A stretch of 64,000 nt of DNA from Rhodothermales bacterium (GCA_958296045.1 CATQHT010000003.1:879246-943245); one strand, 5' to 3'; positions 5,640 through 20,202 are shown, numbered from the stretch's first letter. Notes: generated by a model from the letters alone, not told the origin. Numbers and translations are program-made.

Positions 5640-6324
5640 GGTGTCGATGCTGAGCCCAGCGATCGAGGATTACCTGAAGACGATATATAAGCTTCAAGGT
5701 GAAGGTACGGTATCTACCACCAGTGTCGCACAGGCTATGAACGTCAGCCCAGCGTCGGTTACCAACATGGTCAAGAGGCTCGCGCGCCTTAAGATGGTCC
5801 GCCACAAGTCGTACCGAGGCGTCCGCCTGACCGAAGCTGGCGAAAAGATTGCGCTGGAAATCGTCCGCCACCACCGGCTCCTGGAAACATACCTGAAGCA
5901 GTTTCTGGGATACTCGTGGGCCGACATGCACGCGGAAGCGGAGCACCTGGAGCACCATATTTCGGAGGAATTTGAAAAAAAGATCGATCAGCTCTTGGGC
6001 TATCCCACACACGATCCCCACGGACACCCCATCCCGACGGCCGACCTTACCATGGAGCAGCCCAAGGTGCGGCCGCTGTCTTCTGTGGAGGTTGGGTGCT
6101 GCGTCCGCGTCAGTTCAGTGGCCGACACCGATGCTGGCATGCTGGAATACCTGGAGTCCGTGGGTTTGATGCCGAACCAGAAGGTGACGATCGTGGCCAA
6201 AGCACCCTTTGAAGGTCCGATCACCCTCACGGTCAAAGGCGGAGAGCTTGTGCTTGGCAACTACGCGGCCACCCACGTCTATGTAGACGCTGCCGAGTCA
6301 GAGGATCGTCTTGCCAAGAAGTGA
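5638..6324 (+). CDS. DtxR/MntR-family metal-dependent regulator
   Basis: A 228-residue DtxR-type repressor. The winged helix is at residues 5-65 (IEDYLKTIYKL, VSPASVTNMVKRL, RGVRLTEAG), the metal-binding dimerisation region contains HHRLLETYL and AEHLEHHIS, and a C-terminal FeoA/SH3-like domain starts near residue 145. Such proteins sense Mn2+ or Fe2+ and control metal uptake and efflux. No transporter is adjacent, so the targets are unknown. The start overlaps that of the divergent MnmD gene; ATG 5647 is an alternative start. The 3' end overlaps the convergent arginase by 27 bases. Confidence 0.85.
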   Translation: MVSMLSPAIEDYLKTIYKLQGEGTVSTTSVAQAMNVSPASVTNMVKRLARLKMVRHKSYRGVRLTEAGEKIALEIVRHHRLLETYLKQFLGYSWADMHAEAEHLEHHISEEFEKKIDQLLGYPTHDPHGHPIPTADLTMEQPKVRPLSSVEVGCCVRVSSVADTDAGMLEYLESVGLMPNQKVTIVAKAPFEGPITLTVKGGELVLGNYAATHVYVDAAESEDRLAKK

Positions 6325-7188
6325 GGCTAGAAGGTCCGCCGCCAGGGTAGCGGTACGATTCTGTATGTCGAGGATGGGGTTAATTTCCACGACGTCGATT
6401 GACCCCAGGCGCCCGTCTTCCGCAATCAGCTCCATCAGCAGGTGGGCTTCGCGTGTATTGAGCCCGCCAGTGACAGGAGTACCCACGCCTGGCGCATAAT
6501 GAGGATCCAGGCTGTCCATATCGAGGCTGACGTGCAGCCGCGCCACATGGCTTAGGCGCTCCAGCGCCTCGCAGGCCACAGCGGCGATGCCACGCTCATC
6601 GATTTCGCGCATGGTGTAGATCCCCATTCGGCTTTCGCGTAGCTTGCGGCGTTCGGCAGCGTCGAGGTCTCGGACCGCAATAAGCACGACATTTTCCGGT
6701 TCCACTTTCGGGCCAAGGCGGCCTGCATTCACAAGCTCAGGAGCACCCCGACCAATCAGGATGGACAGCGGCATCCCATGTATGTTGCCGCTGAGCGATA
6801 TGTCAGGAGTGTTAAAGTCTGCGTGTGCATCAATCCACAGGAGACCGGCTGGGCAGTCGTGTGTGGCGCCGCCCACGCTGCCGACAGCGATGGAATGGTC
6901 TCCGCCCATAACCAAGGGCAGATAACCGTCCGAGATTACACTGGCCACCTGTCTGTACAGCAACTCGCACACCTCGCTAATAGGCCGAATGAAGTCCAGA
7001 CCATGGTGCAACGCCAGCGTGTCCCGGACCGGGACGGTCATGTTACCGCAGTCCACTACTATGTAGTTGAGCTTCTGCAGCATTTGAGTGAGCCCAGCAT
7101 AGCGGATAGCGCTCGGCCCCACATCGACGCCACGCAGGCTCTGTCCTAAGTCCATTGGGACCCCGATTAGGTGAATGGTGCGCTGCAT
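6298..7188 (-). CDS. rocF: Arginase
   Basis: A 296-residue ureohydrolase with all Mn2+ ligand motifs: GGDHSIAVG, DAHADFNT and SLDMDSLDP, plus GTPVTGGLN near the end. Length and motif spacing match bacterial arginases, which hydrolyse arginine to ornithine and urea. Agmatinase or formimidoylglutamase are less likely given the N-terminal GQSLRGVDVGPSAIR pattern typical of arginase. Its 3' end overlaps the DtxR-type gene by 27 bases. Confidence 0.9.
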   Translation of the reverse strand: MQRTIHLIGVPMDLGQSLRGVDVGPSAIRYAGLTQMLQKLNYIVVDCGNMTVPVRDTLALHHGLDFIRPISEVCELLYRQVASVISDGYLPLVMGGDHSIAVGSVGGATHDCPAGLLWIDAHADFNTPDISLSGNIHGMPLSILIGRGAPELVNAGRLGPKVEPENVVLIAVRDLDAAERRKLRESRMGIYTMREIDERGIAAVACEALERLSHVARLHVSLDMDSLDPHYAPGVGTPVTGGLNTREAHLLMELIAEDGRLGSIDVVEINPILDIQNRTATLAADLLASLLGKTIL

Positions 7189-7348
7189 ATTGGTATTAAA
7201 CGTGGTGCGAATACGTCGATATTATCTTGCTGGCGCTGGTGCGCATCGCGACCCAGCCTCGGCGCGTGCCCGGTGCATGTGTACCCAGGCGTCCGCGTTG
7301 CGGATCCGCAGGGGCGCCGGATTCGTATAGGCGGACTGTTTCCAAGAC

Positions 7349-9151
7349 GTGATGCGCCCGCTCGCCCGCACCCTTCATTATTTTGTTGACTATCAGCGTC
7401 TCTTTGTACCGGGCCTGCTATACACGGTAATCGGTGCAGGATTCACTATAGCGGTGCCTGTGGTGGTACGTCAGGCCGTGGACAGCATTCCGCGTTTCGT
7501 CACGTTATTTCGCCAGTTCGAGGGTTCCGAGGTACAGGGGCAGCTGTTTGCGGACTTTTTCTGGGTGCTGTTATTGTTCGGTCTTGTGGTGGCTGGACTG
7601 AGCATTTTGAGCGGCTACTGCACCTTTCTGATGCGCCAGACCGTGGTGGTGGCTTCACGCCATATTGAGTTTGACCTTCGCAACCGACTGTTCAGCCATC
7701 TGCAGACGTTGTCGCGCGACTTTTACCTGAAGAGCGCCACCGGCGACCTCATCACGCGGTGCACCAGCGATATTGAGCAGGTACGGCGCTACATCGGTCC
7801 CGCCGTTATGTACATCACGCGCACCGTGGTGATCATTGTGGTGGCAATCGTTGCGATGTTCCTTATTTCGCCCACGCTGGCGCTGTACGCGCTGCTCCCG
7901 ATGCCCTTTCTCACGGTGGCAGTTTTCTATGTTTCCAAGTACATCCATATCAGAAGTGAGCAGCTCCAGCGGCAGTATTCCAAGCTAACCAGCCGGGTGC
8001 ACGAGGCACTGACCGGCATCAGAGTCCTCAAAGCCTACACGCGCGAAGAAGGGGAAGCCAAGGCTTTTGAAAAGGAGAGCGCCCTGTACAAGGAGCGCAT
8101 GCTTGGCTTCGCGATCGTGGACGCGGCATTTCGTCCGCTGTTTGTCCTGGTGGTGGCGGTGTCGGAGATTTTGGTCGTCTGGATCGGTGGCGGTCTGGTG
8201 GCCGAAGGTGCAATAACTATAGGCAACATCGCGGAGTACATCATCTATGTGGCGCTTATGACATGGCCTGCCGCCACCGTGGGCATGGTGGTAACCATGG
8301 TGCAGCGGGCTTCAGCGTCGATGGAGCGCATCACCGAGGTGCTCGACCAGGAGCCTGCCGTCTGCGACGGAGCGCAGACCAACACCGGTATCCGCGCCAT
8401 ACGGGGTGCTGTCTCGTTTGAAGATGTGTCGTTTCGTTACGAGGGGGATGATGCCTGGGCACTCAGGCATGTGTCGTTTGACATCCCTGCAGGCAGTACG
8501 CTAGCGATTGTCGGCCGTACGGGTTCAGGTAAGACGACGCTAATTGAGCATGTTGTGCGCCTTCTGGACCCAACCCAGGGCACCGTGCGCGTGGATGGCC
8601 ACGACGTTCGCACCTTGCCACTTGGGATGTTGCGCGAGGCGGTGGGCTTCGTTCCGCAGGATGTGTTCTTGTTCAGCGACACGGTAGGCGGCAACATTGC
8701 CTTTGGTCGTACGGGAGCAGCTCAGCCCGACATCGAAACGGCCGCGTATGAGGCCGAGCTTCTGGACAATGTACAGGACTTCCCCGCCGGCTTTGACACG
8801 CAGGTTGGCGAGCGTGGCGTCGCCCTGTCTGGGGGTCAGAAGCAGCGCACGACCATCGCTCGTTCGCTGATACGCGAGTCGCAGATCCTGATTTTGGATG
8901 ATGCGCTCAGTAGTGTTGATTCGAAAACGGAGCACCGTATCCTCGGCCATCTGCGGCGGCGTTTTGGCAGGCAGACGCTGGTCATTGTCAGTCACCGCAT
9001 CTCCACCGTTCAGGACGCAGACCTGATTCTGGTGCTAGAGCAGGGTCGCGTCACGCAGCGCGGCACGCACGAGTCACTGACCGCGGTTGATGGCCTGTAT
9101 TCCAGGCTCTATCGTCGGCAGCAGCTGGAGGCGGAACTGGAGGCGTTATGA
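7349..9151 (+). CDS. ABC exporter half-transporter with degenerate Walker B site
   Basis: About 600 residues: a six-helix exporter membrane domain (residues 15-310), then a nucleotide-binding domain. Walker A is GRTGSGKTT, the signature is canonical LSGGQKQ, and the H-switch is VSHRIST. Walker B ends ILILDDALSSVD, with Asp where the catalytic Glu normally stands. That makes this the degenerate partner of a heterodimeric exporter of the BmrC/TM287 kind. Starts at GTG 7349 or ATG 7352 are equally possible. The stop overlaps the ribonuclease Z start (ATGA), and the second half-transporter follows immediately after. Confidence 0.9.
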   Translation: MMRPLARTLHYFVDYQRLFVPGLLYTVIGAGFTIAVPVVVRQAVDSIPRFVTLFRQFEGSEVQGQLFADFFWVLLLFGLVVAGLSILSGYCTFLMRQTVVVASRHIEFDLRNRLFSHLQTLSRDFYLKSATGDLITRCTSDIEQVRRYIGPAVMYITRTVVIIVVAIVAMFLISPTLALYALLPMPFLTVAVFYVSKYIHIRSEQLQRQYSKLTSRVHEALTGIRVLKAYTREEGEAKAFEKESALYKERMLGFAIVDAAFRPLFVLVVAVSEILVVWIGGGLVAEGAITIGNIAEYIIYVALMTWPAATVGMVVTMVQRASASMERITEVLDQEPAVCDGAQTNTGIRAIRGAVSFEDVSFRYEGDDAWALRHVSFDIPAGSTLAIVGRTGSGKTTLIEHVVRLLDPTQGTVRVDGHDVRTLPLGMLREAVGFVPQDVFLFSDTVGGNIAFGRTGAAQPDIETAAYEAELLDNVQDFPAGFDTQVGERGVALSGGQKQRTTIARSLIRESQILILDDALSSVDSKTEHRILGHLRRRFGRQTLVIVSHRISTVQDADLILVLEQGRVTQRGTHESLTAVDGLYSRLYRRQQLEAELEAL

Positions 9152-11861: not shown

Positions 11862-13091
11862 CGCGGCAGGTACGTCCTGCGAACCGCCGGAGCTATCATC
11901 TTTGTTCTTGGGCTGCAGTGACTGGCGGAGGAATCAGATGGCGTTGGGAGAATACTCATGTCGCCGACGTAACTGCCACTGAGATCCAAGGCGATGCCGG
12001 ATCGGAACGATACGGCGCATCAGCGTACGGGTCTCACCGTGGACGAGTCATCAGACCATCACGTGCATATCTCGATCCGTTGGCGACCTATGCCTCGTGG
12101 TTTGCCGGATCCTCAGTCTGGTCGTAGTCGAGACCATTGCGCTCTTGGATTCAACGGCACAGCCCGGTTTGGCACGGTTGCCGCAGGCAGACAATGCCCA
12201 TGCATGCCCGAGAGGCAACTGATGCAAAAGCCGAATCCGTAGTTCAAGATCAGATGGGAGGACTAGTATTCGGCAGCTGCGTGTTGGGATACAGACTCGA
12301 TTTCCTGCAGGCTGCCTTCCTTACCCTTATCGAAGCGGCGGGAATGCCTTCCGCGATACACGCGCCAGCCGTTTCAGGGCTTGCTGTGCGCCACGGACGG
12401 GCCAGCCACCGAGACTGACGGCCATGCCGGGCCAGAGACCTGGCCAGGGTCGCCATTCGCGAGTAGCCCGCATGCCACCGAGATGCGGTTTGGGATCAGT
12501 GATTCCGAATTTGGGTTTTCGGTGGAGGAGAGGAATGGATCTGTTTTCGGTAGGCTACACGCACGCGGGTTGCAGAGGAGGCTGTCGAATGGTTCGAACG
12601 GGCAACAAGAAGCCACATTTGCGGCGCCATCTGTCCGCCCAATAGACTGCGACGGTCTTCCAGGAATCTAGAATCCCCGGTTCTCGTGTTCTTGACGTGC
12701 AATCCTTGAGGATCTGGAAGCGGAAGGCTCCAGCGGAGGCGGATGACAATACAACCTACCCCTCAACGCCACCCAAATTTGGAATCGCTGCTCTGGGACC
12801 CGTCGGCGGGCTTGATCCGAGGAGATGCCTTACTATATCGCCTTACGTATGCTTCGTACTCGCGAACAGCCAGCGGTTGCATTGGGCGAATGGCCGGCGG
12901 CGGGTCTTGCAGCGGCATGCCCGCACGTTTCCCACTGGTGCTGAGCTCCACCAATTCGCTGCCTTCGGCCTCTGATCGGATGCTCCGAGGGATGGAACCT
13001 GGACTTCTGCCACATCGCGGCTTTGCCGTGACGCAACCGATCCGACCCAGAGCCGTAGTACAATTCGCTACTCGTTCAGGCGATTGCTATT
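11862..13091 (+). other. 1.2 kb gene-poor stretch
   Basis: No reading frame here is long or family-like enough to support a gene. Short open segments occur on both strands but none shows a motif I recognise. Given the decayed mobile DNA elsewhere in the window, a degraded insertion is possible, but nothing in the sequence identifies one. Confidence 0.5.
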
Positions 13092-14441
13092 ATGAATAAT
13101 GCGTATCGACAGGCTCCGGGATCGTCTGGAATCCGAAGCTCTGGGCTCGCGCTTCCTGCCGTATTGGGATGCTTCGTTATTGCGGCCTTCATTGCTGTTT
13201 CGTGCGGCCCTGCGCAAGCGCCACCGGACTCCGCTGTGATCGACACCACAGGCGTACAAATCGTGGCGGACAACCATGGGTTGAATTTTTCACAGCCCGA
13301 ATCGATTATCGAAAGCGCCCGCGCACGGATCCTGACAAGCGATCCGCTAGGCAGTACAGCCCGGTGCACGCTGGGCGATTCGCCTGTTTTCCGAGTCGGC
13401 GATGACGAGACCGAAGAGGCGCAAATGTTTTCCAGGGTTCGGGGGATGGGCCGACTTACCGATGGATCGGTGGCGGTCGCCGAGCGGGCGAGCCGTGAGA
13501 TACGCATCTTCGGGGGACACGGCCGATTTCTTCGCTCAATGGGCGGTCCGGGCGATGCTCCGGGGGAATTCCGCGATCCCTTCGTCCTCTGGGTACTTCC
13601 TGGCGACACTCTCTGGGTTGGCGATTATAGTCCCTATCGTTTCGTGGTATTCACCTCCGCGGGCGAGTTTGTACGCAATGTTGCGTTGGACCCGGTCTAC
13701 GTGAATCCCTCGCACGCTGGAGGTGTGCTTGACAATGGAAGCTCTGTGAACGCATGGCAACAGCGCGCTCTCATTCGTGACTTCTCCGCTCCCGATACGC
13801 TAGTTGTAGAGATGCATGATCGGGACGGCCATCGGGTCAAGGAACTCTCCAGAATTGCTGGGCGCTCGTTTGGCCAAACTCGCGCGTCGGAACAATCAAA
13901 CTTCTACTTCGGCAGGATCTTCGATTCCGACGGTTGGGCTGACGCGAGAGAACGCACTATCGCGCTGGCACACACCGCGACCCCCGAGGTCTACCTCTTT
14001 GACGAGACCTTCCGCCTCCGTTCGATCGTGCGTTGGCACGTTCCCGACCAAAGGGTGACCGCCGCCGATGTGCGGGCTTGGCGCAAGGAGTACATCGAGA
14101 GACAAAGCACAGCCGGCAGTACTTGGAGTGAGGAATTCGATAGTCCGCTGGTCAGCCGGGAACGTCCAGCAGCCGACCGGTTCCCGACATTCTCGAGCAT
14201 ACAGGTAGGACGAGACGGGCGCCTGTGGGTAAGACCGTACCGACGGCCGCGCGCGGAGCCTACCCGGTGGATGGGCTTTTCTCGCGATGGATCATTCCTT
14301 TGTCACCTTGAGCGCCTGCCGGAGGAGTCCAGCATCGATATATGGGAATTCGGGGCGGATTATGTGCTCGGGGTTTCCGTCAGCGTTAACGGGACTGATA
14401 CGGTCGTAATGTACGCACTCACAACGCCTGGGGAGGCTTGA
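13092..14441 (+). CDS. 6-bladed beta-propeller lipoprotein, function unknown
   Basis: A 449-residue secreted protein: an N-terminal hydrophobic stretch ends in a lipobox (FIAVSCGPAQ), followed by repeated propeller-type units such as GSVAVAERASREIRIFGGHG, GDTLWVGDYS and DGRLWVRPY. This is typical of the 6-bladed beta-propeller lipoproteins found in multiple copies in Rhodothermota, Bacteroidota and Gemmatimonadota. No enzymatic residues can be assigned. It lies between a gene-poor region and the candidate defence pair, which is on the opposite strand. Confidence 0.7.
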   Translation: MNNAYRQAPGSSGIRSSGLALPAVLGCFVIAAFIAVSCGPAQAPPDSAVIDTTGVQIVADNHGLNFSQPESIIESARARILTSDPLGSTARCTLGDSPVFRVGDDETEEAQMFSRVRGMGRLTDGSVAVAERASREIRIFGGHGRFLRSMGGPGDAPGEFRDPFVLWVLPGDTLWVGDYSPYRFVVFTSAGEFVRNVALDPVYVNPSHAGGVLDNGSSVNAWQQRALIRDFSAPDTLVVEMHDRDGHRVKELSRIAGRSFGQTRASEQSNFYFGRIFDSDGWADARERTIALAHTATPEVYLFDETFRLRSIVRWHVPDQRVTAADVRAWRKEYIERQSTAGSTWSEEFDSPLVSRERPAADRFPTFSSIQVGRDGRLWVRPYRRPRAEPTRWMGFSRDGSFLCHLERLPEESSIDIWEFGADYVLGVSVSVNGTDTVVMYALTTPGEA

Positions 14442-14735
14442 CCCATTTGTTATGCACTGCAGACCTGGGTAGCCGCTGCCGTTTACACAAACCGAGTGGC
14501 AGCATGTGCCGCATCGATACGGAGATTTCCGCATGCCGCCGATGCGGTGGCTATTGAGAGCAAGAGCGATCGCAGGCCCACCCAAGGTGTACTGAAATCA
14601 TAACCAGTGGATATTGCCAATGGGACGCTCATCAGTGAGCGTCGAGAGGCCGTACAGCAAGAGTAGGAGTTATGAAGCGGCCTCGTCGCTACCACTTGTG
14701 CATCCGAGTCTGTTGCTTGGACGCGTCTAGGACCA

Positions 14736-15974
14736 TCACACCGGTTGCGCCGCATAAATCGTGAGCATTACTTCCGCATCGTCGAACACCCGAAACATTG
14801 GTCGCCGCCCAGAGAGCTCCAGACTCTCCTGCAATATGATGGGCACACCTTCCCCGCGTCCCTCCATCAGGAATTGACGGCCGATCTTCCCTGTTGGATC
14901 CTCGACCCGGCACTTGGCCAGCAGTGTCGTCAGCAGTTCATTGCGAGTTGATTGCCGAAACTCAATGGAATCAACCGTGACAGAGTTCGGTAGCGGGCCG
15001 GGCGAATAGAGTTCCAGCCGATCTGCGAACATCAACAGGCGAATCTTTGATCCGTGCACGGAATAGTCGCGATGCGCCACCGCGTTCACGATAGCCTCAA
15101 AGGCGGCACGCAGACTGAACTGCGGGATGTCCACGCGCCCGGGGGCCTTGCGAGCGGCCACCCTCATGTTGCGCCGAACAAAAGTCATCGCCTCTGCGAC
15201 CTGCTCGTCCAATGATCCAGTGATATCTCGGGCATCTACCTGATAGTTTCCATCCTGGCGAGTTCCTTGATAGCATACTGCTTGAATAAATGCACCAGGG
15301 AGCCACCGCTGCGGACTCGAAGAGCACATCAGGATTCCGCCTACGGTTGCACGCGCTTCCCTTGACTCGTCGTTCGTGACGAGCTTCATTTTCTTGAACG
15401 TAACAAGGTCGGCAGCATCGGGCATTGAGAAGCAGCGCCGCCGATCCGGTTCGAGATCGACGAACGTCGTCCCAGGCACCGCCTGTTCCTCGAATCGGTA
15501 CCGATGGGCCTGACTTCGCTGCTGACCGAGGCGCAGCAGGTAGTCGGTAGGGATCTGTCGCTTTGAACTGCCCTGCCTATGAAAGTAACCTCCGGGGCTT
15601 TTGTGAAGGTACAGGCCGCGCGGAACTTCGACCTTGAGGAGGGGCCGCAACTCACCCGCTGCATCAGGGAGCTCCACGCGGATAGCATAGAACCGCAGCG
15701 GTGGTTCGATGCTATCGTTGCAAATTTCGGAAACGTACTGATCGACCAAGTCTAGTCGCTCGACCGGTATCCCGACGATGTCTCGCGTCCTATCATCAAC
15801 GCCAAGCACCAGGACTCCACCTCGCGAATTGGCAAACGCCGCAAGTTCGTCTGCCAGCGTTTCGCGGCGTGGACCCCTTACTCTGTCTCCCTTGAATGAC
15901 ACATCCTTCAGCTCAAGCGAACTGTCTTCGCCCAGCTTTATCCTGCGTAGCAACTCCCCAGGGCTATCAGTCAT
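14736..15974 (-). CDS. AlbA_2 (Schlafen-type) plus GHKL ATP-binding protein
   Basis: A 412-residue protein. The N-terminal AlbA_2 domain (about residues 15-130) has ELKDVSFKG and DELAAFANSRGGVLVLGVDD. The C-terminal GHKL-type ATP-binding region has FEAIVNAVAHRDYS, LELYSPGPLP and RGEGVPIILQES. AlbA_2/HATPase proteins are usually annotated as putative regulators and are common in defence islands; related Schlafen domains can bind or cleave RNA. The start overlaps the stop of the upstream PHP-ATPase gene by 8 bases, so the two are very likely co-translated. A joint anti-phage role is inferred. Confidence 0.8.
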   Translation of the reverse strand: MTDSPGELLRRIKLGEDSSLELKDVSFKGDRVRGPRRETLADELAAFANSRGGVLVLGVDDRTRDIVGIPVERLDLVDQYVSEICNDSIEPPLRFYAIRVELPDAAGELRPLLKVEVPRGLYLHKSPGGYFHRQGSSKRQIPTDYLLRLGQQRSQAHRYRFEEQAVPGTTFVDLEPDRRRCFSMPDAADLVTFKKMKLVTNDESREARATVGGILMCSSSPQRWLPGAFIQAVCYQGTRQDGNYQVDARDITGSLDEQVAEAMTFVRRNMRVAARKAPGRVDIPQFSLRAAFEAIVNAVAHRDYSVHGSKIRLLMFADRLELYSPGPLPNSVTVDSIEFRQSTRNELLTTLLAKCRVEDPTGKIGRQFLMEGRGEGVPIILQESLELSGRRPMFRVFDDAEVMLTIYAAQPV

Positions 15975-18756
15975 CCGATACCCCGGCGACTATGCGGCGA
16001 TACCGCTCCTTGAAGGCATCCAGGCCTCCTTCCATAAGCGTGCAAATGCTTGCCCGTACGCCCTTTTTTAGAAGACTGCCTTCAGACTCTATCTTCGTAT
16101 CGTTGTCCTTAGCAGCAAGCGCTACCACGAGCTCGGCATCGCCGTTGACGACAATGTTAGGGTTGTGCGTTACCACAATGATCTGCCGGCGCTGTTTTTC
16201 TTTACGTATCTGATTGACGATCAGTTCGTGAACCAACCGGTTATCAAGGTCATCCTCGGGCTGATCCAGTACGAGGGGTTGCTTTCCGTATGAGAGCAGA
16301 AACGCCAAAAGCGCTGCGGTCTTCTGACCTGGCGATCCCGCACTGATGGGTCGAAGGTGCCTACCATCTCCGGTCGGACTGTACTCGACTTTAAGGTGAT
16401 CTTCGGGAAACCACATGTCGAGGCGATCAAACACTTCTGGCTGTAAATTGCCAAGGTGGTTCGCGAATCTACGGTCCACGGGACTACAAGTGCCTTCACG
16501 AATGCGACGAACCTTTTCCGTAATGCCTGTAATCGCCGTTTCGACTGCTGCCGAGCCGCTCTGGTTCTCTTGAGCCTGTTTGAGCGCCTGCAGGAGACGA
16601 TCAATGTCCCCCCTGAAGGTGTCGTCCTCTTTCTGGATCAGGCGACGGAAGTCAGCCTCGACGGTCTTTTGCTCTCCGTAGGGAACGATGTGCATACGCA
16701 CATAGGGATTCCCTTGCAGTACGCCTTCCAGGAAGCGGCGGCGGATCCTGGTACGCTCCCTGCGGATATTCAATAGCTCACGCCGGCTGTCGTCTGCTTG
16801 GCACTTTAGCTTCACCACTTCCGTTTTCCGACTCTTCAAACGGTCCAAGTCCTGCTCGATGAGCTGCCGGCGTTGCACGAGCAACCCATAGTCGGACGGA
16901 TCACTGATCCCTTCTTCTGCCAGCTGCTTGGAAAGAGATTCATACGCAGCTACAGCCTCGTTGGCCGCTTTTTTCCAAGCCGACTTCTCGAGTTCTTTCT
17001 TCCACCGTGTTACCGTCTCGTCCGCTTCGTCTGCGACTTGTTCCAGCTGCTTACGGATTGCTCCAAGCCGGTCCCGAGCACGATGTGCCTGTGTTAGGAG
17101 CTGCAAGTCCGCCTGAGACCCACCAAAGGTGTTAGCCTCGTCAAGAGCGTCTGGAACAATGTCCGCTGCCGTGGTCCGTATTCGCTTGCCCGCGTCGACC
17201 CATTGCTCCTCCCACATCCGAATTTCTCTCTGCTGGCGCCGGTTCTGCTGATAAGCTCGTAGGATATCTGCATGGCCACTCCTCTCGAAGACCGCCAGCT
17301 TCCTTTTCACATCGTCAAGTTCCCCCTTAAGCTTATTCTCATCCTGCAACTCGGCGCCGATCTGTCGAACCTTCACCCGTATTGACAGAATGTTGTGTTC
17401 CTCCCGACTCCAGCGGCTTTTCAAAGGCTGCTGGTCCCCGTCCGACGCCTCGTCCACGATGCGAAGCAACTCGCCAGGTGTGGTCGCTGCGTGAAAGATC
17501 TGTTTCTGACTGTATATGCGAACAGGAAAACGCTGGACCACCTTACCAGGCGCCTGCGACCACACTCCGTTTGCCGTCTCTTCCTCGATGGCATCCAGTG
17601 CGCCCTTTGGGTCCCACTGTACCCGAAATCTCGCCCCATTCTTCAAATAGATCACGCGAAACTTCGTCCGTTCTGTTAGCAGCCCATTGCCGTCTGGAGG
17701 CTCATTGGAATACATTGCAAACTCCTTACGCAACTCCTCGGGCAACTCGCCATCGCGGCGCAAGGCAATCCGCAGAAACTCAACCAGCGACGATTTTCCG
17801 GTGCCTCGTCCTCCGATAATGGCATTCAACCACGGGTTGAGGTCCACCTTGAATGGGCTTCCCTGACCCATGTACTTTGTGCCCGTCACCTCGATAGACT
17901 CCAGTACCGCCTCGGCATGTTGCTCGTTCGGCGAAGTGGGGTGGGTATCGGAGCGACGCACCGACAGGGAGCCATCCAGCAAAGCCAGCCGCAACCCCTC
18001 AATATCTGGAGGGTCGCCCATCTTAACCCAAGTGAAATGGCTTCCAGGATAACGTTGCCCCTCCTTGCCGGAACAATGGTGAGAATCGGAGCCGACAATC
18101 TCGGTCCAGCCCACCTTCATGTCGCGGTAGAGCTGCGGCTTTTCGCTTTGGGGGCACCGGATCTCCGTGGCAAATACCTGATCGCAACGCAATGCCTCTT
18201 TCAATGTGTCGCCACTAGCCTCCGTGAGCAGGCCCTTTTCGCAGTCAGCGTGCGCTGGAATGGCTATACCACCCGAATTCACAATCTGTTTGACCACCTT
18301 CCTGAAGGGCTCCCTTGTCTGTGTACTCGTCCCCTCAACAACTCCAACAGCACCAAGCAGACCGATTATATCTGACCTGGTTTTCTCACGGGAGAAAATA
18401 GCAAGCAGGTGCACGTTTCCATGCACAGCAATCTCGACCCCTGGAAACAAGTACAGAGGCCGGAATCCCGCAGGTCTTGCCAGCACCAATTTCTCTAGGT
18501 CCGCTTTAAGACGATCGATCCAGCCACCGCCGTTGTGGTCCGTAACCGCTACACAGTCAACTCCTGCACGCATGTAGCCGAGTAGCCAATCCCGCGGCGT
18601 ACACTGCTGTTCTTCCTCTTGATTCGGTCCCTTCCCGTAGTCTGTTGATGCTGGGGTATGCGTGTGAAGGTCACACTTCCACCATCGGGCTCCGTTCCAG
18701 CTCTGCAGCGACATTACCTCAGCGTCTTGGATTGATCCTTTTGAAGGGGACGACAT
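15967..18756 (-). CDS. PHP phosphoesterase fused to SMC/Rad50-like ATPase (TrlF-like)
   Basis: A 929-residue protein. Residues 28-230 form a PHP domain: DLHTHTPAS near 30, AVTDHNGGG near 70, PGVEIAVHGNVHLLAIF near 105, IPAHAD near 166 and VGSDSHHCS near 221. The ATPase has Walker A GGRGTGKSS (315-323), a long charged coiled-coil region (about 430-740), an ABC-like signature SAGSPGQKTA, Walker B LVLDQPEDDLDNR (about 828-840) and an H-loop VVTHNPN. This matches TrlF-family AAA-like ATPases. PHP domains are metal-dependent phosphoesterases, so a DNA- or RNA-sensing nuclease is plausible. ATG 18714, with GAGG close by, is an alternative start and keeps all motifs. Confidence 0.85.
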   Translation of the reverse strand: MSSPSKGSIQDAEVMSLQSWNGARWWKCDLHTHTPASTDYGKGPNQEEEQQCTPRDWLLGYMRAGVDCVAVTDHNGGGWIDRLKADLEKLVLARPAGFRPLYLFPGVEIAVHGNVHLLAIFSREKTRSDIIGLLGAVGVVEGTSTQTREPFRKVVKQIVNSGGIAIPAHADCEKGLLTEASGDTLKEALRCDQVFATEIRCPQSEKPQLYRDMKVGWTEIVGSDSHHCSGKEGQRYPGSHFTWVKMGDPPDIEGLRLALLDGSLSVRRSDTHPTSPNEQHAEAVLESIEVTGTKYMGQGSPFKVDLNPWLNAIIGGRGTGKSSLVEFLRIALRRDGELPEELRKEFAMYSNEPPDGNGLLTERTKFRVIYLKNGARFRVQWDPKGALDAIEEETANGVWSQAPGKVVQRFPVRIYSQKQIFHAATTPGELLRIVDEASDGDQQPLKSRWSREEHNILSIRVKVRQIGAELQDENKLKGELDDVKRKLAVFERSGHADILRAYQQNRRQQREIRMWEEQWVDAGKRIRTTAADIVPDALDEANTFGGSQADLQLLTQAHRARDRLGAIRKQLEQVADEADETVTRWKKELEKSAWKKAANEAVAAYESLSKQLAEEGISDPSDYGLLVQRRQLIEQDLDRLKSRKTEVVKLKCQADDSRRELLNIRRERTRIRRRFLEGVLQGNPYVRMHIVPYGEQKTVEADFRRLIQKEDDTFRGDIDRLLQALKQAQENQSGSAAVETAITGITEKVRRIREGTCSPVDRRFANHLGNLQPEVFDRLDMWFPEDHLKVEYSPTGDGRHLRPISAGSPGQKTAALLAFLLSYGKQPLVLDQPEDDLDNRLVHELIVNQIRKEKQRRQIIVVTHNPNIVVNGDAELVVALAAKDNDTKIESEGSLLKKGVRASICTLMEGGLDAFKERYRRIVAGVSDD

Positions 18757-19095: not shown

Positions 19096-19862
19096 ATAAT
19101 GATTCACTTTTGGAATCGGCGTAAGATTGCATGGCGGGCTGGTTTGCACTTCGGATTGCGGGAGGTTCGCTCCTGAAGCCAGCGAGTCATGGCATTCAGA
19201 GTGTCCGTTTGGCTTGTTTATCCTGGCGGAATTGGGCGGTGTCGCGGCGGTGGGTGGTCACTTGGGAAGCGTTCGGGTTGATCGTCGCAAGCCTTGTTGA
19301 GCACGACCAGACGGGCGTTTTGCACGGTCTCAGCGAGTTCGTAGGGTACCACATCGGGATACGCGAGCGCCAGACCGGTGTGGTGATATTCGCGATTTCA
19401 CCATTGACAGAACCCGTTGGCCCATGCTTTGGCATCCTCGAGTGGTCCGAAGCGCCGCGGATAGGTTGGCCGGTACTTCATGGTCTTGAATTGTGCTTCT
19501 GGATACGGGTTGTCGTTGGAGGTGTACGGGCGTGTGAACGATCGTTCTTCGCGCAGATCGTTGAGCAGCTGCACGACAGGCGTCGATGTCATGGGACTTC
19601 CCCGATCGCTGTGGATCACCAGTTGATCGGGCCGTATGCCTTGGCGGTGGCAGGTGGTCTTGATCAAGGCGTGTGCCAGACGGAAGGACTCGCAGTCGGC
19701 GAGGGTCCATCCCACGACGAATCGGCTGAAGACGTCTATGATAGCGTAGAGCGCATAGTGGGTCCATCTGCGCGGTCCCTTGAGCGTGGTGATTTCCCAC
19801 GACCCGAGCATGTAGCTGCGCGAAGGCCACAGCTCCGGGCTGCTCACCCCTGCGGGTTCAGG
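19096..19862 (-). mobile_element. IS3-family remnant, copy 1 (orfB C-terminal half)
   Basis: The minus strand keeps the integrase core of an IS3 orfB: SSPELWPSRSYMLGSWEITT, YAIIDVFSRFVVGW, IHSDRGSPMTS, RSFTRPYTSNDNPYPEAQF and YPRRFGPLEDAKAWANGF. A TGA at 19398-19400 interrupts the frame just after FCQW; beyond it the usual tail continues (EYHHTGLA, DDQPERFPS). The end near 19096 (AATAATGATTCACTTTTGGA) resembles the ends of the copies at 52.5 and 57.4 kb. orfA and the front of orfB are missing, so the element is dead. Confidence 0.8.
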
Positions 19863-20202
19863 ATCGGACCTTCAGAGTCGTGTGGGCGCTGGGCGCGCCT
19901 TACATCTGGCCCCATTGCCGCAGCAGCATTTACGCGCTCGTATGGGAAGGCCCTTGCAGCACTATCATAAGCGAACAAACCCGAGCCGGACAGCCACGGC
20001 CCCTGGCATCCACATTCGTGACCAGCAGCCATGGACAGGCATGGCCCACAAACTCAGGCAGGTCCCGATCTTCGATGGGGCGGCACCTTATGGCAGTGCG
20101 TCGGACGGGTCACCTTCAACAAGAGGCGCTGGGGTGCCGGTTGTTGCGTTCACTGCTCGCTCATCGTATCCTACCAGTATCTTGTAACTATCCCCTCCTG
20201 CT
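19863..20202 (+). other. Intergenic stretch upstream of the DUF6797-like cytochrome gene
   Basis: About 340 bases between the truncated IS3 copy and the next gene. No coding motif, repeat or convincing promoter was recognised. Confidence 0.35.

Follow-up and report, generated by a model that had tools for sequence, protein, structure and literature searches.

The window, a stretch of 64,000 nucleotides from a Rhodothermales bacterium that was analysed as a whole, carries on its minus strand two intact, overlapping genes (Table 1). The first, called gene A here, encodes a protein of the TrlF/Ppl family in which a PHP domain is joined to an ABC ATPase of the SMC/Rad50 kind; the second, gene B, encodes a TrlG-type protein with a Schlafen/AlbA_2 domain and a GHKL domain. 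The two frames of 929 and 412 residues and their 8-base overlap, described in an earlier note on this DNA, were confirmed in the sequence. Gene A ends with GAT GAC TGA and gene B starts with ATG ACT GAT, and the shared bases, ATGACTGA, likely serve to couple translation of the two genes. Upstream of the pair lies a dead IS3-type transposase remnant (19131-19970), which had also been noted before, and an rve integrase fragment was found within it on the minus strand (19398-19847). The pair in the window has no defence-gene neighbours and does not lie within a defence island. A sigma-70 promoter scan of the locus found none, the sigma-70 model being uninformative for this lineage.

Table 1. Features of the two-gene locus, in window coordinates
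Feature	Position	Strand	Basis
Gene A: TrlF/Ppl-family PHP + SMC/Rad50-like ABC ATPase, 929 aa	15967..18756	-	NCBIfam, PADLOC, AlphaFold, Foldseek
Gene B: TrlG-type, Schlafen/AlbA_2 (16-141) + GHKL HATPase_c_4 (308-405), 412 aa	14736..15974	-	Pfam, phmmer, AlphaFold, Foldseek
Stop/start overlap of genes A and B, 8 bases	15967..15974	-	Sequence; homologues keep close spacing
Gene A PHP-domain region, residues 20-233, nine of nine candidate metal ligands present	18058..18699	-	
Gene A Walker A, GGRGTGKS, residues 315-322	17791..17814	-	
Gene A Walker B / D-loop, DQPEDDLDN, residues 831-839	16240..16266	-	
Gene B Schlafen catalytic region, residues 16-61, including E16, E21, K23 and D61	15792..15929	-	

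Gene A is assigned to the TrlF family by its match to the NCBIfam model NF045780 (TrlF_fam_ATP; 602 bits against a cutoff of 350, residues 21-922). It also matches the Ppl model NF042955 over its full length, but the score of 532 bits falls short of the curated cutoff of 1000, and so gene A is not Ppl proper; the PADLOC Ppl model gives 445 bits. The candidate PHP metal ligands are H31, H33, D73, H74, E108, H116, H169, D224 and H226, and the ABC signature SPGQK is present. The AlphaFold model (pLDDT 90.1) has long coiled-coil helices, and in Foldseek it matches the heads of SMC, Wadjet JetC, Rad50 and RecN. The PHP metal motifs, Walker A and B motifs and SMC-like coiled coil that had been read from the sequence are thus all present. 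Ppl is homologous to gene A over the full length, with PHP and ATPase motifs intact in gene A, and is nested within the TrlF tree; it differs in being a single gene, whereas gene A has a Schlafen-type partner. The E. coli Ppl protein is described in a review as a 3'-5' exonuclease of single-stranded DNA that is set free when nucleotides are depleted and 3' ends are present (PMC12904381).

The AlbA_2 plus GHKL architecture reported earlier for gene B is borne out by Pfam, with matches to SLFN_AlbA_2 (E 4e-17, 63 bits, cutoff 25.3) and HATPase_c_4 (E 8e-17). In a phmmer search of the PDB, gene B aligns with Schlafens. Foldseek relates its AlphaFold model (pLDDT 87.7) to DIP2311 (4e-21), to the cores of Schlafens (about 5e-6) and to the SAMD9 tRNase (4e-4), as well as to GHKL domains from pyruvate dehydrogenase kinases and histidine kinases; the fold corresponds to that of SLFN5, SLFN11, SLFN13 and SLFN14. 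The catalytic acids of SLFN13 are E205, E210 and D248 (PMC5862951), and E16, E21 and D61 of gene B correspond to these, D61 having been placed by sequence alignment. Among 59 paired gene B proteins, E16 is conserved in all 59, E21 in 53 and D61 in 58. The AlbA_2 domain named in the earlier note therefore stands, but the generic nucleic-acid binding or signalling role given to it there is the less fitting reading. By its sequence and its modelled fold, gene B is best read as encoding a putative Schlafen-type RNase effector rather than a generic binding or signalling protein.

The likeness of gene B to the Schlafen/SAMD9 RNases (SLFN13, SLFN11, SLFN14 and SAMD9) thus consists of the AlbA_2 fold and the E/E/D catalytic acids. 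There are also differences: gene B has one AlbA_2 lobe while SLFN13 is a pseudo-dimer, it has a GHKL ATPase domain where Schlafens have a helicase, and its RNase activity is predicted. Gene B likely belongs to one class with the RNases that combine a Schlafen domain and a minimal histidine kinase in BREX/DUF499 systems and that occur at similar loci (PMC12839542); the main text of that paper mentions neither PHP nor histidinol phosphatase. Lone proteins of 580-610 residues with AlbA_2 and HATPase_c_4 domains are numerous in the family of this genome (L060, L062, L064 and L066, where L numbers denote individual loci, and L022 at 6260-8011), and that of L022 has a C-terminal extension of about 170 residues with no Pfam match.

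Homologues of the two genes are frequently adjacent. All six TrlF loci of this genome have a gene B homologue downstream, four of them as intact pairs (the window, L017, L019 and L020) and two decayed (L018 and L021). The wider sample consisted of genomes of the window's class, 23 of 245 of which have a TrlF match, together with plasmids and 80 named loci from a species genome collection; these 80 came from an alignment-based scan, a scan with a single protein having matched none. The DNA downstream could be tested for 102 full-length TrlF genes, and in 62 of these, from many phyla, gene B comes directly after TrlF. This proportion of 61% is not a census because the survey covers the best-matching loci and counts a few of them twice under two names. 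The remaining TrlF genes, about 40% of those surveyed, are lone. In the pairs the spacing is near-constant, with gene B mostly starting no more than about 20 bases from the stop codon of TrlF, and annotated examples include Pseudomonas savastanoi plasmid pPsv48B and Yersinia ruckeri plasmids. Since overlapping or abutting pairs recur in tens of genomes, the pair is not a product of chance. The idea that genes A and B are merely incidental neighbours, which would have called for rare adjacency, is rejected by this survey, had nothing in its favour and retains next to no probability.

On a TrlF tree of 106 rows, from which double-named loci had been removed, pairing is spread throughout and is strongly clustered (15 changes, against 34.7 in shuffles). 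The window falls inside a fully paired group of seven, and the single-gene Ppl is placed among unpaired rows. In one wholly paired clade (L019, L035, L036, L038, L052 and L053), the HxH motif of the PHP domain is replaced by QxN. Decay of the PHP domain was considered as a mark of pairing, but the difference is not convincing: by hand count, an early ligand is missing in 14 of 60 paired and 5 of 40 lone TrlF proteins.

Many pairs lie inside restriction, Hma or BREX loci, so that nearness to defence genes, which the earlier note had also expected, was found outside the window. For at least 13 of the 44 pairs from outside the window's class, a gene of the restriction or BREX type lies close by and runs in the same direction, a lower bound because of contig ends. 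Adjoining genes are of the Hma (L086, L091, L093, L098, L105, L133 and L142), type III (L073 and L076), type I (L106 and L154) and type II (L075) kinds, and PglZ adjoins the pair in L131 and is one gene farther away in L077. E. coli AR_0137 and Nord122 carry the pair inside a Tn7-like element, with hsdR of a type I system on one side of it and hsdS on the other; at locus L200, the E. coli pair of the Tn7-like element spans 11962-15746. The Yersinia pair is matched in part by 161 of 5426 E. coli genomes. Within the class, the 117 neighbours of pairs match 178 PADLOC families, compared with 64 for 117 control proteins of the same genomes; this test counts families rather than proteins, its control is positional, and it carries supporting weight only.

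Sequence and comparison establish which families the proteins belong to, that they form an operon, that their catalytic residues are intact and in what genomic context they occur. It is reasonably probable that the two genes make up a TrlF-TrlG defence module. TrlF would be a Ppl-like sensor, in which a PHP nuclease is fused to an SMC/Rad50-type ATPase, and its trigger would be a sign of infection, probably DNA ends and falling nucleotide pools by homology to E. coli Ppl. TrlG would be an RNase of the Schlafen type that also has an ATP-binding domain of the GHKL kind and that, once activated through TrlF, could cut tRNA or other RNA and bring translation and growth to a stop, while the PHP domain of TrlF might meanwhile degrade DNA. 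The pairing and the defence context of the two-component anti-phage system proposed in the earlier note are supported by the survey, and from these we infer an anti-phage activity of the pair.

The position of the module inside restriction, Hma and BREX operons, like that of PrrC beside type I systems, hints at a guard role, with firing set off by the failure of restriction. PrrC is kept silent by the type I enzyme to which it is linked, and an anti-restriction factor of the phage activates it (PMC2610378). A broader proposal, advanced tentatively and with somewhat less than even confidence, is that TrlF-TrlG is a general guard module, a counterpart of PrrC divided between two proteins, with a Schlafen tRNase controlled by a DNA sensor of the Ppl kind. 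On this view the module would have been inserted repeatedly in operons of the type I, II, III, Hma and BREX kinds, and the Photorhabdus phenotype described below would be anti-phage misfiring. PrrC and RloC likewise couple an ABC ATPase to a tRNase, and PrrC is linked to type I systems, a placement like that of the many TrlF-TrlG pairs found within restriction operons. However, PrrC and RloC are single proteins with a HEPN nuclease and without PHP, and Pfam found no HEPN domain in gene A or gene B.

The trlF-trlG operon is already known genetically, from the temperature restriction locus trlR-trlF-trlG of Photorhabdus, which its authors interpreted in terms of temperature adaptation, not defence (PMC7554251). 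The gene order is the same, with TrlF (annotated as a histidinol phosphatase) followed by an AlbA_2 plus HATPase_c_4 TrlG, and the pair in the window has this layout. A close homologue is found on Yersinia ruckeri plasmid pYR3, and the Y. ruckeri plasmid locus L152 has the same pair. In the window, no convincing open reading frame for a small TrlR-like regulator was found between 18757 and the IS3 remnant in a list of frames of at least 100 residues, a limit above frames of about 79 residues. The clade of the window differs in keeping the PHP aspartate and the three Schlafen acids, which is not so for the Yersinia, Pseudomonas and E. coli members.

In Photorhabdus, the operon is induced upon temperature upshift, and growth at 36 C returns once trlG is mutated or the operon is deleted; in selections at this temperature, trlG was mutated repeatedly and in both domains, but the larger trlF never (PMC7554251). 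When the Photorhabdus residues were placed via the E. coli and Yersinia homologues, 10 of the 11 published TrlG substitution positions could be matched to homologous residues by a single, constant shift in numbering, A193 being the misfit. N335D corresponds to N345, which is invariant, and S16N to S18, which lies between E16 and E21. The induction and the restored growth favour the view that the pair is a host operon for growth arrest under temperature or other stress, with no role in defence. That view is nonetheless quite improbable: presence is patchy, at 23 of 245 class genomes, and the pair is carried on plasmids and on a Tn7-like element and is embedded in restriction, Hma and BREX operons, all of which would suit a mobile module for defence. 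The arrest of growth on heating could equally reflect a toxic effector that misfires.

One might instead ask whether TrlF alone is the defence protein, a Ppl-like DNA exonuclease, with gene B encoding an accessory DNA- or RNA-binding regulator that has no RNase activity. Ppl does work as a single gene (PMC12904381), the partner is missing from the lone TrlF genes of the survey, annotation often labels AlbA_2 plus HATPase proteins RNA-binding or RecG-like, and Schlafen acids are substituted in one clade. Yet E16, E21 and D61 are nearly invariant across pairs, gene B matches the Schlafen and SAMD9 tRNase folds, toxicity in Photorhabdus maps to the gene B counterpart (PMC7554251), and the QxN clade has lost the PHP HxH motif while retaining the gene B acids. 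An accessory role for gene B is accordingly considered unlikely.

A further arrangement, less probable than not but deserving weight, is of the toxin-antitoxin type, in which TrlF holds the gene B toxin inactive until phage disturbs TrlF. It overlaps the favoured TrlF-TrlG defence module and differs solely in how TrlF controls gene B. The model is PARIS (AriA ATPase/AriB tRNase), which also consists of two genes for an ABC ATPase and an RNA-cutting effector, although AriB is a Toprim protein where gene B has AlbA_2, and AriA is of the OLD type without PHP. The overlap of the genes and this layout are consistent with such control, as are two decayed TrlF copies (L021 and L046) with partners substituted at E21 or K23, but these two cases are anecdotal and one comes from a metagenome bin. 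Gene B relatives with intact Schlafen acids occur without TrlF (L061, L063 and L065), so TrlF is not a strict antitoxin and the simple form of the model is weakened, and deletion of the whole operon in Photorhabdus is uninformative about trlF alone. The partner substitutions at the broken TrlF genes, E21A and K23N (L021, 7315-8571; L046), are rare in the Schlafen motif.

The proposed nuclease mechanism may differ in an enterobacterial and plasmid clade (L039, L040, L151, L152, L154 and L200), because both nuclease centres are altered there. The PHP residue D73 of TrlF is replaced by N and E21 of gene B by Q, with D61 additionally replaced by N in E. coli, so that the PHP aspartate and the partner Schlafen acid have both become amides. 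Either these members work differently or the nuclease reading is incomplete. Photorhabdus TrlG, a relative of this clade by residue matches only, nevertheless arrests growth (PMC7554251).

If the guard reading is true, it joins three literatures, on the temperature restriction locus, on the anti-phage Ppl protein and on the antiviral Schlafen RNases of animals, and it makes the concrete prediction that bacterial restriction systems are guarded by a Schlafen relative. Because an E. coli Tn7-like element already carries such a pair, the idea is directly testable in laboratory strains.

Other arrangements of TrlF were also seen. Elsewhere in this genome, a gene of the HmaA-like/NOV_C kind (L171, 12535-13863) overlaps the start of another TrlF gene and is possibly a third member of that operon. 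Lone TrlF genes (L103, L115, L118, L121, L127 and L145) often directly adjoin type III restriction genes, and in L103 an SbcD-like nuclease comes next after this arrangement.
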